Source of the DNA: a virus
IMG/VR virus record: IMGVR_UViG_3300009080_000059
Span: 1-22,091 of that record
DNA: 22,091 bases
Direction: 5' to 3' (one strand)
A model generated the notes under the pieces. It saw nothing but the letters and a program-made list of their open reading frames with translations. It did not search any database and was not told the DNA's origin. Shown here one piece after another: positions 10,793 to 19,600 of this stretch (position 1 is the stretch's first letter; every line of letters starts with the position of its first letter). Made by a program: the position numbers and the translations under genes.

Positions 10793-11468
10793 CTTGTTTC
10801 TCATAATACATTTCGCAACGCTTCCACCACTCCTGCGCCCACTCATCAAACTCATCTGGCCATATATCAAACTGTTGATAATCTAAATCACGCGAACACA
10901 TAAAGATATGTCCTTCACGTATGTTTGTGCCATGTACTTCGTTGTGTGCTAATGCGTATGCAGTAAGTTGTAGGTAGTAGTCATACACCCACTCAGGTTT
11001 CTTAGGTTTGTTAGTTTGTTTAAAGTCCATTATGCAAGGCTGACCTTTGTATTGTCCTACTAAGTCAGTTGTTCCTGCATAGATGCCCGGAACATATAAA
11101 GGAACTTCACTTCCCCATATCTCATCTACATCACCCATTGCTTCGTCACGTATAACACACGCCATTGAGTGTGCTTTTTGTGCATATGGATTGCTACCAC
11201 AAGTTGGCCATTCGCCAAACTCTATATAATCTTCAAGGTATTTGTGCATACGTGTACCCACGCCTGCCGCTTCAGTTACAATCTCTTGTGCTTTCTTTTC
11301 GCCTACACGTTTGCGCCATGCAATTAAGTGTGACTTATCTTTTGTAGCGTCAAGTATAGTTGTTACACTTGCTACAGGTACACCGCCTGGTGCAGCATAC
11401 TTACGTTTACCGTTTACTTCAACTCGCTTGAGTCTTTCGTATTTGTACTTCTCTATAATTAAGCTCAA
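10788..11468 (-). CDS. PD-(D/E)XK nuclease, RecB/Cas4-like
   Basis: 226 residues with the ordered motifs of a RecB-family nuclease: GTRMH (His75), SEVPL (Glu121), AGTTD (Asp135), IMDFK (Asp148, Lys150) and QLTAY (Gln167, Tyr171). These are the metal-binding and catalytic residues of the PD-(D/E)XK fold. It likely degrades or trims DNA, in host DNA breakdown, recombination or end processing; polarity and substrate cannot be told. Cas4-type FeS cysteines are not obvious. The start is TTG at 11468, overlapping the TGA stop of the NFU gene, so translation is coupled. The pairing with an Fe-S protein gene is notable. Confidence 0.85.
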   Translation of the reverse strand: MSLIIEKYKYERLKRVEVNGKRKYAAPGGVPVASVTTILDATKDKSHLIAWRKRVGEKKAQEIVTEAAGVGTRMHKYLEDYIEFGEWPTCGSNPYAQKAHSMACVIRDEAMGDVDEIWGSEVPLYVPGIYAGTTDLVGQYKGQPCIMDFKQTNKPKKPEWVYDYYLQLTAYALAHNEVHGTNIREGHIFMCSRDLDYQQFDIWPDEFDEWAQEWWKRCEMYYEKQA

Positions 11469-11818
11469 TCTTTAGGTTCCTTTGGTAATTCTACGTCATA
11501 GTCTTCTAGATGAATACGTTGCATGCCAAATGGGTCTGACATATATGGCTCGACTCCCGAGTTCGGATCGTCTACTCCAACAACAGCCGTTACTTCAGGG
11601 ATCATACCAGTAAGAGTTCTTTCAATACCCTCTTTTAAAGTCATTGAAGACATAGCACAACCAGAACAAGCACCGCTCATTTCAAGTGTTACAACTCCGT
11701 CATTGTAATCAAGGTAATTTACTACGCCACCGTGTCCTGCTACTGCTGGCTGAACATATATTTCTAATACTTGTTTAATATTTTCAACAGTTGAATCATA
11801 TGTATTTTTATCAGTCAT
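11465..11818 (-). CDS. NFU-domain (NifU C-terminal-like) Fe-S cluster protein
   Basis: 117 residues from the ATG at 11818, which has AGGAG upstream; the frame stays open to 11869 but that extension has no ribosome site. Residues 10-85 match the NFU domain: a helix with VLEIYVQPAVAGHGGVV, a strand VVTLEMSGAC, and the cluster-binding CSGC (Cys51, Cys54) followed by SSMTLKEGIE. NFU proteins carry and deliver Fe-S clusters to target enzymes in the cytoplasm. The acidic C-terminal tail (residues 90-117) is extra to the domain. It is transcribed with the PD-(D/E)XK nuclease from its own sigma70-like promoter. Confidence 0.9.
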   Translation of the reverse strand: MTDKNTYDSTVENIKQVLEIYVQPAVAGHGGVVNYLDYNDGVVTLEMSGACSGCAMSSMTLKEGIERTLTGMIPEVTAVVGVDDPNSGVEPYMSDPFGMQRIHLEDYDVELPKEPKD

Positions 11819-11840
11819 AAAAAAGCTCCTATTAATGTAT

Positions 11841-11869
11841 ATAATAACACCAAATAAGAGCTCTGTCAA
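11841..11869 (-). promoter_or_regulatory. Sigma70-like promoter for NFU-nuclease operon
   Basis: On the minus strand, TTGACA (11864-11869) and TATTAT (11841-11846) are separated by exactly 17 bases: a perfect -35 and a 5-of-6 -10. The start codon lies 22 bases after the -10. It suggests early transcription by unmodified host RNA polymerase. Confidence 0.75.
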
Positions 11870-11877
11870 CCGTTAAT

Positions 11878-12090
11878 TTAAAGTCCAGCACCCACGTCAG
11901 TTGCTCGCTTTGCCATGTCACCAACAGTGTCAGCATCACTTGGCTCAGTGCTACCTACTTGATCCATAGAACTATCGTTAATAGTTACACCTTGTGGATC
12001 AAACTTAACTAACTTTTGGAGTTGTGGATTGCTATCGTAAGTTGCTTTGAATGAATTGTAATCAAACTGTGGTACGCCAGCTTTTTTCAT
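11878..12090 (-). CDS. C-terminal part of the frameshifted acidic protein
   Basis: As a stand-alone frame this gives 70 residues from ATG 12090 (MKKAGVPQFDYNSFKATYD), but no ribosome site precedes that ATG. The same frame is open for 34 more codons upstream to 12192, encoding protein-like sequence (KIAEALDESGTLVQIIKTI), and joins the nine-A run at 12193-12201 where the upstream gene is in the neighbouring frame. A -1 shift there fuses the two into one protein of about 351 residues. I therefore read it as the C-terminal end of the gene at 12183-12932. Function unknown. Confidence 0.6.
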   Translation of the reverse strand: MKKAGVPQFDYNSFKATYDSNPQLQKLVKFDPQGVTINDSSMDQVGSTEPSDADTVGDMAKRATDVGAGL

Positions 12091-12182
12091 ATAGCCATTA
12101 AGTTTGTCCCACGTAATAGTGGTTCCAGGCTTAATTGTTTTGATTATTTGTACTAGTGTACCAGACTCGTCTAATGCTTCGG

Positions 12183-12932
12183 CTATTTTAGCTTTTTTTT
12201 TGAACGCTCTACTGACTCACGCTTTTCTCTGCCAGCTTCTTCTTCGCCGCCAGCAGCCGCATCGTCTGCACCAAAGTCATCGCCCATGTCATCTAAAGGC
12301 TCATCAATACCTGGCTCTAACTCATCAGTAGGTTCCATGTCGCCTAAGTCGCCCATGTCATCGTCGCCCATTGGCTGTTGCATGTCGCCTTCACCAGTTA
12401 GCATACCAACACCACTTGTTAGTGCTGCTCTTGTGCCTTCCATTTCAGCATATAGTTGCTCTAATGCAGGCTTAATAGTATTAGTAAATGACTCAGCTTG
12501 CTCACTACCCATCTCGTCTCTAATAGCATCTGCTAGTTCAAGCATTGATTCAGTTTGCATTTCTGCTGTGTCTTCCATCCAACCAGTAACTCTGTCAACC
12601 ATGTCTTTGGCTGCCATTACTAATTCAGCTTTGTCTTCTTCGCCTTCAGTAATAGTTGCTTCAAGCATTGGTTCGTCAATGTCAGCTCTTTCGCCAATCT
12701 CAGCATTAAGTACATCTAGGAAAAGTTTTGACTTTTGATACGCTGGATTTTGAGTTGAGTTAAAACTTTCCTTTGTTTCAACTTGACTAAGTGTTGTTCT
12801 TAATTTGTTTTGGGCATCTTGTAACTGTCCAAGTGTAAATTCTTCTAAGTTTAGACGCTGGCCAAACTTCTTAGCTAGGCTTTCGTTCAAGCTCTTTGCT
12901 GTAATTGGTTTTGAAATTTCTCTTATATTCAT
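12183..12932 (-). CDS. Acidic coiled-coil-like protein with capsid-targeting-like N-terminus (0-frame product)
   Basis: 249 residues in the 0 frame. The N-terminus MNIREISKPITAKSLNESLAKK carries the signature shared by neighbouring genes and an L-N-E|S site that could be cut by a prohead protease. Residues 30-185 are mostly predicted helix; 185-235 is a strongly acidic Asp/Glu/Gly/Met tract, recalling T4 prohead core proteins in composition only. The frame ends in a Lys tail just after A AAA AAG, and the -1 frame continues for 104 codons (see 11878-12090). The full product is probably about 351 residues. A late-type promoter lies upstream. Confidence 0.75.
   Translation of the reverse strand: MNIREISKPITAKSLNESLAKKFGQRLNLEEFTLGQLQDAQNKLRTTLSQVETKESFNSTQNPAYQKSKLFLDVLNAEIGERADIDEPMLEATITEGEEDKAELVMAAKDMVDRVTGWMEDTAEMQTESMLELADAIRDEMGSEQAESFTNTIKPALEQLYAEMEGTRAALTSGVGMLTGEGDMQQPMGDDDMGDLGDMEPTDELEPGIDEPLDDMGDDFGADDAAAGGEEEAGREKRESVERSKKKLK
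12192..12203 (-). other. Slippery A9 run, candidate -1 frameshift site
   Basis: The minus strand reads TCA AAA AAA AAG in the 0 frame, containing A AAA AAG, the heptamer used in E. coli dnaX frameshifting. Slipping back one base continues as AAA GCT AAA ATA and stays open to 11878. A small GCTA-AAA-TAGC hairpin follows directly. A missing A in the assembly would look identical. Confidence 0.6.
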
Positions 12933-13854: not shown

Positions 13855-14178
13855 TTATATCCTTTTTGCCTTAGACTTTTTACGGTTAGTCCTCATGCTT
13901 ATGTTTACCTTAGGTAACCTACGTGAAGCAGGATTTGCTCTTTTAGTTCTTGCTGTTTTAACAGCCTGGCGCTTGGCGCCTGCTCTTTTTACTTTTTTAA
14001 GTGTAGTTGCCTTCTTAATATTCTTTGGTGCTGTACATGTTGACATCTTAGCAACAATACGTCCTTTACGTGGACCACTACTACATCTGTATTTACGAGT
14101 ACTCTGGTTGCCTTTACGTCCATAAATGGATGTTGCACCTTCGTCTATACTTATTGATGTTAACTCTCGTAAGTACAT
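13855..14178 (-). CDS. Basic protein, paralogue A (possible packaged DNA-binding protein)
   Basis: 107 residues, extremely basic, ending KKSKAKRI. The start MYLRELTSISIDE|GATS carries the shared signature and an I-D-E|G cleavage-like site. The rest aligns with its neighbour: RKYRC-x15-C (Cys32, Cys48) around a GRIV core, an IKK segment and a KRANPASRR motif. The two Cys could pair or bind metal, but no zinc-ribbon set is complete. Basic internal proteins of T4 heads are injected with the DNA; a similar role is inferred. The ATG overlaps the stop of the upstream paralogue (TAATG). Confidence 0.75.
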   Translation of the reverse strand: MYLRELTSISIDEGATSIYGRKGNQSTRKYRCSSGPRKGRIVAKMSTCTAPKNIKKATTLKKVKRAGAKRQAVKTARTKRANPASRRLPKVNISMRTNRKKSKAKRI

Positions 14179-14483
14179 TAGATTCTCTTTGCCTTACCTG
14201 CCTTATTAAGTTGAGCAACTCTACGGCTTGCTGAATTAGTGCGTTTAGTCTTACGTGCTTTACGTGACATCTTGGCACCTAGTCTTGCTTTTGTAACCTT
14301 AAGTTTCAAACGTTTCTTTATGTCAGGTCTTGCAAAGCATTGTGCAATGTTAGACACAATACGTCCATGCCGTGTGCCGCCAGCACATCTAAACTTACGA
14401 ACAACCTTGTTGCCACGTTTAGCCCATGCCATCTTAGCTTCGTCTAGTTCTTCTAGCGGTAAGGTAATCTCTCTTAATAACAT
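14178..14483 (-). CDS. Basic protein, paralogue B (possible packaged DNA-binding protein)
   Basis: 101 residues, very rich in Lys and Arg and ending AGKAKRI, like its neighbour. The start MLLREITLPLEELDE|AKMA contains the shared signature and L-D-E|A, the closest match here to the T4 prohead protease site. It shares RK(Y/F)RC-x15-C (Cys33, Cys49), GRIV, IKK and KRTNSASRR with paralogue A, so the pair arose by duplication. No Shine-Dalgarno precedes the ATG, which is 16 bases after the upstream stop; re-initiation is likely. Confidence 0.75.
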   Translation of the reverse strand: MLLREITLPLEELDEAKMAWAKRGNKVVRKFRCAGGTRHGRIVSNIAQCFARPDIKKRLKLKVTKARLGAKMSRKARKTKRTNSASRRVAQLNKAGKAKRI

Positions 14484-16607: not shown

Positions 16608-17693
16608 TTAGTTCGGTTGCCATCTAGAGCGTGGAACCAATTTAATCTTTGATTTTTGAGCAACGTAACCTTCACCGCCGCGTTCGTCGCCTGTTGATGC
16701 TTTAATGTCTGCATCAGCATCGTCTAGTTGATCTATAATATCATCCTTTGCTAACATAATTTGTTTTACCAAACCAAATATAGCTAGAAGTGCTTGTGGC
16801 GACTCGTTATGCATTGCCTGTATCTTTGCCTGCTTGTTAGCACTAACCTTACTAGTGCCTAGCCAATCAAAGAATCCTTTTTCAATATTCTGTAATTGTT
16901 TTGTTCGTGTCATATGATTAACATAGGTATAAATTATGTTCTTCATATCACTTAACCCTTTCACTGGAGCAAGGAACGAATCAATTAATTTTCCATTCTT
17001 TTGTACCAGCTTACGTATACTATCTGTTTCGCCTGACTTCACAGTTGGCTGATGTGATACATAAGTTTGCCCTAGTACTACAACATCTTTACTGTTTAGT
17101 TCACCTACTTGGTTAACTGGCTGTCCGTCTTTGTCTCCAAAGGCATTATATCTTGTGTGTACTGTAACTCCTACTTTAGACTGTGCTATACGTTTACCTA
17201 TATCGCTGTTAACGTCTACAGTATAAGTTACTTTGTTTGGTGTAAATTGTATTTTACCATCTGTTATTGTGTATGGATTACCTGGATGGTATAATAAGTC
17301 TCCGTATACATATTGATTTGTACTTGGTGGAGTTGAGCCTTTTAGTATGTCAAATATCTGTCCCATATCATTGCCAAACTTCTCACGCCATTGTTCGCCT
17401 TTGCCACTGTTCTTGATAAACTTAGAAAGGTCAGCGGATGATGTTGAACGCTGTCTTCCCCAGCCATTCTTACCAACCATAACAAACTCACCATTGTCTT
17501 CACGTCCCCAATAGATAGTTGGATTACCGTCCCACTTAATGGCAACGTCTGAACTATCTGTTCCTAGGGTGTCTAGTATGTCTGCGGCTTTGTTCGCACC
17601 CTGTGACCCATCAACAAACACTAGGTCCTCTAAGTGTTGATACTCTCGGCCAACTTTTGCTTCTGTTAATATACGGAATTCACCAAATCTCAT
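16608..17693 (-). CDS. Ligase-like protein with KWDG motif and capsid-targeting-like N-terminus
   Basis: 361 residues. AIKWDGNPTIYWGR (Lys53) matches motif I, KxDG, where ATP-dependent ligases and capping enzymes bind the nucleotide. YVYGDLLYH (128-136) resembles motif III, with Asp in place of the usual Glu. EGYV (341-344) and KIKLVPR (349-355) resemble motifs IV and V, though they are unusually close together and near the C-terminus. The start MRFGEFRILTE|AKVG has a good L-T-E|A prohead-protease-like site. It is coupled by ATGA to the nucleotidyltransferase-like gene. A ligase or nucleotidyltransferase role, perhaps in nucleic-acid end repair, is likely but unproven. It may instead be a catalytically drifted relative. 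Confidence 0.7.
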   Translation of the reverse strand: MRFGEFRILTEAKVGREYQHLEDLVFVDGSQGANKAADILDTLGTDSSDVAIKWDGNPTIYWGREDNGEFVMVGKNGWGRQRSTSSADLSKFIKNSGKGEQWREKFGNDMGQIFDILKGSTPPSTNQYVYGDLLYHPGNPYTITDGKIQFTPNKVTYTVDVNSDIGKRIAQSKVGVTVHTRYNAFGDKDGQPVNQVGELNSKDVVVLGQTYVSHQPTVKSGETDSIRKLVQKNGKLIDSFLAPVKGLSDMKNIIYTYVNHMTRTKQLQNIEKGFFDWLGTSKVSANKQAKIQAMHNESPQALLAIFGLVKQIMLAKDDIIDQLDDADADIKASTGDERGGEGYVAQKSKIKLVPRSRWQPN

Positions 17694-18810: not shown

Positions 18811-18832
18811 AATGTACATAATGGAGGGCACA

Positions 18833-19600
18833 ATGAAAGGTATACAAAAATTAAGTTTTTTAGAAAGATCATTATTATTCGCTAAACTATCACAAGTAGC
18901 ATATAATAACATAGACGATGCTAAAAAGCAAGCAAAAGAATTAGGTTTCACAACTATTGAGTTTTATGACAAAGACGGAGCACAAGCATATCGATTTATG
19001 AACAAGACAGATCTTGTTATTGCTTGTAGAGGAACACAACCTACAGAATTTAATGACATCAAAGCAGATTTAAAAGCCCTACCAGTTCTTGCAGAAACTA
19101 TGAGTCGAGTACACAGAGGTTTCAAAGCAGAAGTTGATGAACTTTGGCCAATGGTCGAAGAAGATGTATTACGTAAAACAAACTTAAACAAGACACTTTG
19201 GTTTTGTGGACATAGTTTAGGAGCGGCAATGGCAACTATAATGTCTAGTCGTTGCAAACATAATATTGAACTAAATGACCCAGTACAATTATACACTTAT
19301 GGTTCTCCTCGTGTAGGTTGGAAAGGTTATTGTGATAATATATGTGTCGAGCATAATAGATGGAAGAACAATAATGATATTGTTACTAGTGTTCCTCCAA
19401 CGTTTATGGGATATAAGCACCACGGTACTAAACACTACATCAACGCCTATGGTAATGTCCGTAATTTAACTTCATGGCAACGAATCAAAGATAAGTTGCG
19501 TGGACTATGGATGGGTATTAAGGCTGGTAAGGTAGATTCATTTAGCGATCACAGTATTGATGAATACATCAAACACATTGAAACAGCGTTAGGAAAATAA
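18833..19600 (+). CDS. Class 3 lipase, alpha/beta hydrolase
   Basis: 255 residues from the ATG at 18833, chosen because GGAGGG lies just before it; an upstream in-frame ATG lacks a site. The nucleophile elbow [11 protein letters not shown] has Ser128, Asp172 lies in [10 protein letters not shown], and His230 lies in SDHSIDEYI, giving a full Ser-Asp-His triad in lipase_3 order. YTYGSPRVG before the Asp is also typical. There is no signal peptide, so it acts in the cytoplasm or is released at lysis. It would hydrolyse acyl esters, possibly host membrane lipids. It is the only complete plus-strand gene here and overlaps prs tail to tail by 12 bases. Confidence 0.9.

Follow-up and report, generated by a model that had tools for sequence, protein, structure and literature searches.

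Why should a long reading frame stop directly behind a run of nine A's, with a second frame carrying on from the same point? In the window, the whole 22,091-nucleotide stretch of viral DNA analysed here, the minus strand reads GTTCAAAAAAAAAGCTAAAATAG at this junction (more fully, GAGCGTTCAAAAAAAAAGCTAAAATAGCCGAAGCA). The 0-frame stop, TAG, lies two codons past A_AAA_AAG, and the -1 frame, taken up at GCT (12192), is closed by a stop at 11880..11878 (Table 1). A -1 slip on the heptamer would give the fusion ...SKKK-AKIAEALDESG... of 247 + 104 = 351 aa. The minus-strand reading thus agrees with the first-pass annotation, which had described a 0 frame ending two codons after A_AAA_AAG within A9, a -1 frame open for 104 codons, and products of 249 and about 351 residues. 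The 22-kb window, an IMG/VR record, holds no other A9G.

Table 1. Features of the slip junction and of its products in the window.
Feature	Position	Strand	Detail
0-frame ORF, 249-aa N-terminal protein	12183..12932	-	translation ends ...ERSKKKLK, then stop
Slip heptamer A_AAA_AAG, in 0 frame	12192..12198	-	
A9 run	12193..12201	-	
-1 frame extension, 104 codons + stop	11878..12192	-	AKIAEALDESG...KRATDVGAGL, then stop
Candidate prohead-protease site IAE↓A, fusion residues 250-252	12178..12186	-	[VIL]xE in 120/120 junctions
Candidate protease site LNE↓S, residues 15-17	12882..12890	-	L15, N16, E17 invariant (34 aligned sequences)
Candidate protease site ITE↓G, residues 94-96	12645..12653	-	E96 invariant, I/L/V/M at -2 in 34/34
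Predicted closing stem, 5' arm	12181..12186	-	fold of 12193..12082
Predicted closing stem, 3' arm	12091..12096	-	fold of 12193..12082

The same annotation had left three options for this arrangement: programmed slippage, a variable-length homopolymer acting as a switch, or an assembly error. Relatives of the N-terminal part (N part) are present in at least 570 viral contigs, and the comparison covered 139 distinct junctions, drawn from two MAGs and from relatives in IMG/VR. It should be noted that this survey is a sample, because each of the six viral-contig scans and the one genome scan behind it gave its best 80 loci at most. A slip site is present in 133/139 junctions and absent in six. In all 133, a heptamer of the form X_XXY_YYZ stands in the 0 frame (A_AAA_AAG in 124, A_AAA_AAA in 7 and A_AAA_AAC in 2), and the 0-frame stop follows 0-4 codons from the slip. 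The run is A9 in 115 of these junctions, A6 in nine, A8 in five and A10 in four. Such runs are almost absent elsewhere in the slip-site loci, where the junction holds 119 of the 128 A9/T9-or-longer runs in 948,058 bases. A few loci carry a second A9 run, either about 48 nt upstream of the slip (L044, L069, L079 and L345) or 23 nt downstream of it (L005 and L015), which looks like a duplication of the junction segment.

Homopolymers are prone to error, and a sequencing or assembly error, or a pseudogene, is the reading that this property favors. It is refuted by the recurrence of the run across many independent metagenomes (133 distinct junctions), by identical copies of the window's N-terminal gene assembled in three other contigs (L002-L004), and by similar purifying selection in both frames (dN/dS of 0.114 in the -1 frame and 0.129 in the 0 frame), and we regard its probability as negligible. 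A homopolymer switch is unlikely because no run length among the surveyed members fuses the two frames at the DNA level; with 6, 8, 9 or 10 A's the heptamer stays in the 0 frame. These comparisons support the remaining option, and a programmed frameshift almost certainly operates at this junction.

At the 133 slip-site junctions the -1 frame meets its first stop after 97-204 codons (median 104) and the +1 frame after 1 codon at the median, and the -1 ORF is conserved along its whole length, with a constant C-terminal motif, MAKxA. The longest example, L077:4756-5379, has a -1 frame of 204 codons in which some 95 extra residues separate the slip from the C-terminal domain (C domain). The C-terminal part might alternatively be an independent gene, translated by re-initiation or from a non-standard start and never fused, and the cultured relatives and a subclade typified by L112 do carry such a gene, the latter via a TAATG overlap. 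Among slip-site members, however, ATG, GTG or TTG occurs in the first 12 -1 codons of just 9/133. A start codon accompanied by a Shine-Dalgarno-like 4-mer is found within the first 40 -1 codons of just 7/133, so that the earlier remark that the first -1 frame ATG has no ribosome site holds family-wide. Independent translation would also leave the homopolymer without a reason for being kept, and the TAATG subclade is nested within frameshift members in the tree described below; we therefore consider this alternative very improbable. A separate downstream gene in homologues had been named as an observation that would count against the frameshift. It is present in a minority of them (the L112-type subclade, L369 and four cultured relatives), and the C part can therefore also be made alone; the frameshift reading for the other members is not undermined.

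A frameshift at this junction could arise on the ribosome or on the polymerase. In transcriptional slippage, the polymerase would add one A on A9 and the ribosome would read the longer message unslipped. A run of nine A's is long enough for slippage by bacterial polymerase, and the predominance of exactly A9 is consistent with it. Many IS elements use transcriptional slippage, as does Shigella spa13 (PMC5009743). Against it, the nine A6 and five A8 junctions all keep A_AAA_AAG in frame, as in the GGA AAA AAG TCG TAA of L245, L247, L254, L263 and their relatives (A6), and RNA structure behind the slip is under selection, although polymerase slippage needs none. Because nine junctions have only A6, we favor ribosomal slippage, which is very probably the main mechanism; transcriptional slippage is improbable in that role and may add to the yield on A9. 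The heptamer itself is the dnaX slip site and is among the most shift-prone in E. coli, where it shifts much more than A_AAA_AAA or A_AAA_AAC (PMC5009743).

Over nt 0-110 behind the slip, the mean RNA folding z is -1.70 (se 0.13, 90 clusters; synonymous shuffles), compared with -0.35 for control nt 180-290 (Mann-Whitney p 1e-11, uncorrected for relatedness). Structure in excess of synonymous shuffles spans about 110 nt and is weaker further on, and its form varies by clade, some clades having 9-10 bp hairpins (GTAGATAGTGCTACTATCTAC type). In the window, the fold of 12193..12082 reaches -21.7 kcal/mol with a z of -2.36 against dinucleotide shuffles, and the window's clade has a z of just -0.98 against synonymous shuffles, a modest excess. 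The predicted fold is branched, and its closing stem, AUAGCC/GGCUAU, lies five nt past the slip heptamer. The 3' RNA structure associated with -1 frameshifting is thus present in the family as a putative stimulator. An upstream Shine-Dalgarno stimulator, which is optional in bacteria, was not found, with SD-like 4-mers in 9/133 junctions. The arrangement resembles dnaX in having the same heptamer, a 0-frame product that ends or changes right behind it, and downstream RNA structure. It differs in that the frameshift shortens the dnaX product and lengthens the product here, that no Shine-Dalgarno stimulator was found, and that the A-run is usually A9.

The frameshift gene comes from a large marine clade of T4-like jumbo phages. 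Two near-complete relatives, of 357 kb and 330 kb, both encode the gp21 protease and gp23 and show the T4-like order acidic gene, gp21, gp22-like, gp23. In the 330-kb relative, the major capsid protein is 71.5% identical to its counterpart in Vibrio phage 2.275.O; against the PA5oct and Paride counterparts, identity is 67%. Cultured relatives of the frameshift gene were reached by profile search only, tblastn of the N and C parts against INPHARED having returned nothing. The N-part profile matches one gene each in PA5oct, Vibrio 2.275.O, Erwinia SNUABM_19 and Phosso (E 1e-10 to 1e-17). In all four, the N gene is succeeded after 0-12 nt by a separately started small gene (104-132 aa), and the slip site is absent from the N/C junction; in three of the four, an exonuclease-type gene comes next. 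These jumbo T4-like phages (PA5oct/Paride, the Eneladusvirus Erwinia SNUABM_19, Vibrio 2.275.O and Phosso) thus share the homologous N gene and its small downstream neighbour, each with a start of its own. The C-domain profile aligns with the cultured small proteins at an hhalign E of 5e-5 and a probability of 68%, with four divergent sequences on the latter side. In PA5oct, the C profile matched genes other than gp246; the case for orthology of gp246 and the C domain is therefore made by synteny, size and the joint profile.

Within the marine clade, a subclade without the slip site (L112, L113, L114/L115, L117 and L149) starts the C domain at TAATG with the peptide MKISDIINE↓G. A tree of the exonuclease (4 label changes) has the frameshift throughout the marine clade, with the L112-type TAATG subclade branching from within. 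How often the frameshift was gained and lost can be read from this tree only tentatively, because it is built on one short gene with long outgroup branches and possible recombination.

The N part is modelled by AF2 as helices at residues 12-179, followed by an acidic, disordered tail (182-249) of low confidence. The C domain gives a weak winged-helix-like model (pLDDT about 80 over residues 11-80), and this fold is only a hint because a Foldseek search with the model gave no match below E 0.001. Neither part has a Pfam match. A PHROG head-protein match (phrog_14154, 2e-11) is not taken as proof because its alignment partly covers the acidic tail, and identity with the T4 gp22 scaffold was rejected, a different 362-aa gene lying between gp21 and gp23 in the 330-kb relative.

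What, then, might the two products do? A [VIL]xE motif ends no later than the eleventh -1 frame codon in 120/120 distinct junctions, with a variable middle residue and mostly A, G or S next, and two further candidate sites lie in the N part (Table 1; the arrow marks the candidate cut), of which LNE↓S is possibly the end of a targeting peptide. The cleavage consensus of T4 gp21 is [I/L]xE. A related motif, AxE, is that of the SPN3US protease (PMC7411985), and the capsid targeting sequence of T4 internal proteins is cut off by gp21 (PMC7411985; PMC9958956). The separate C proteins start MKISDIINE↓G, MRFSQITE↓D, MRYKDLCE↓G, VKIKDILVE↓S and MRLSEIINE↓S, and these starts resemble capsid targeting peptides that are cleaved off. 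Frameshift members have lost the start peptide and retain [VIL]xE directly behind the lysines. The gp21 protease (PF03420, Peptidase_S77) is encoded in the two near-complete relatives and in a Marinimicrobia MAG; the 22-kb window is too short for gp21.

We propose that -1 ribosomal frameshifting on A_AAA_AAG, just before the 0-frame stop, yields two products from one gene: mainly the 249-aa protein, which probably belongs to the prohead core or to the internal head proteins, and a minority 351-aa fusion with the 104-aa C-terminal domain. Through the fusion, the small C domain would enter the prohead in a proportion that depends on slip efficiency. The active prohead protease (gp21, Peptidase_S77) would cut after the junction [VIL]xE, and the freed C domain would either remain in the head or be ejected. 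The targeting-like starts, the junction [VIL]xE and the sites in the N part suggest that the N part brings the C domain into the prohead and that the protease releases it. Since a protease-type site sits exactly at the fusion point, the slip is likely to be a fixed-dose loading device. The annotation of PA5oct gp247 and gp246 as virion proteins (both structural by ESI-MS/MS) fits head loading. Comparative sequence establishes the recoding signal, its conservation, the selection on both frames, the RNA structure and the two-gene arrangement of cultured relatives. Head location, cleavage, slip efficiency and the role of the freed domain are here inferred from sequence, and for head loading with protease release we put the chances at about even. 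The whole account, from frameshift and two products to head loading and protease release, is with good confidence the best explanation of the data.

The frameshift may instead be real in a protein that is not a protease-processed head protein, [VIL]xE being structural and the fusion working uncut, for example as a minor extension like T7 10B. C-terminal extension of phage structural proteins by frameshifting is known (PMC5009743), and the cleavage itself is read from sequence; but a purely structural role sits poorly with a junction [VIL]xE that is present in 120/120 junctions and has a variable middle residue, with the same motif form opening the separate C proteins, and with gp21 in the near-complete relatives. 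We consider an uncut fusion unlikely, though a serious competitor to head loading with protease release.

Minor structural or assembly fusions made at a fixed ratio are likewise found in T3/T7 gene 10, Listeria PSA/A118 and lambda G/GT. Here, in contrast, the protein is neither a major capsid protein nor a tail chaperone, and the extension, a conserved domain of 100 aa, is encoded by a gene of its own in relatives and has a protease-type site at the junction. With T4 IPI-III, Alt and the core proteins gp67/gp68 the system shares a short peptide ending xxE, a gp21-type protease and an acidic core-like carrier, but the carrier is joined by frameshift here and an N-terminal targeting peptide serves there. 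Retroviral Gag-Pol, in which a -1 frameshift fuses a minor cargo to the particle protein and a protease frees it, offers an analogy only, without homology, and the phage cleavage is putative. A device of this Gag-Pol-like kind, in which the frameshift replaces the N-terminal targeting peptide, supplies a fixed minority of fusion with release behind the slip, and has been lost at least once through a regained start and targeting-like peptide, is plausible at somewhat less than even chances.

Several neighbouring genes in the window were also noted. Directly downstream of the frameshift gene lies a NifU-like Fe-S scaffold domain protein (11465-11869, minus strand; Pfam NifU 8e-24). Two similar, adjacent, very basic small proteins (13855-14178 and 14178-14483, minus strand) begin MYLRELTSISIDEG and MLLREITLPLEELDEA and end KSKAKRI and GKAKRI, respectively; they have no Pfam match and are possibly DNA-binding internal head proteins with targeting-like N-termini. 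A 361-aa DUF6267 protein (16608-17693, minus strand), with distant relatives in cyanophages, starts MRFGEFRILTE↓AKVG, resembling a T4-type targeting peptide. A Class 3 lipase gene (18812-19600, plus strand) lies on the strand opposite to its neighbours.

Frameshifting in phage structural genes is a known kind of event; its pairing with a protease-type release site and its exchange with a separately started gene are new. An earlier report of this frameshift was not found in our literature search, most subscription journals being outside its scope, nor was a frameshift ratio combined with maturation-protease release found in the phage literature searched. The recoding is very widely conserved in marine jumbo phages, and gene callers will split or truncate the gene. 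It suggests a way of dosing a protein into the virus head, in which the frameshift ratio would set the amount and the maturation protease would release it, and the cultured relatives with an unfused pair make this idea testable.
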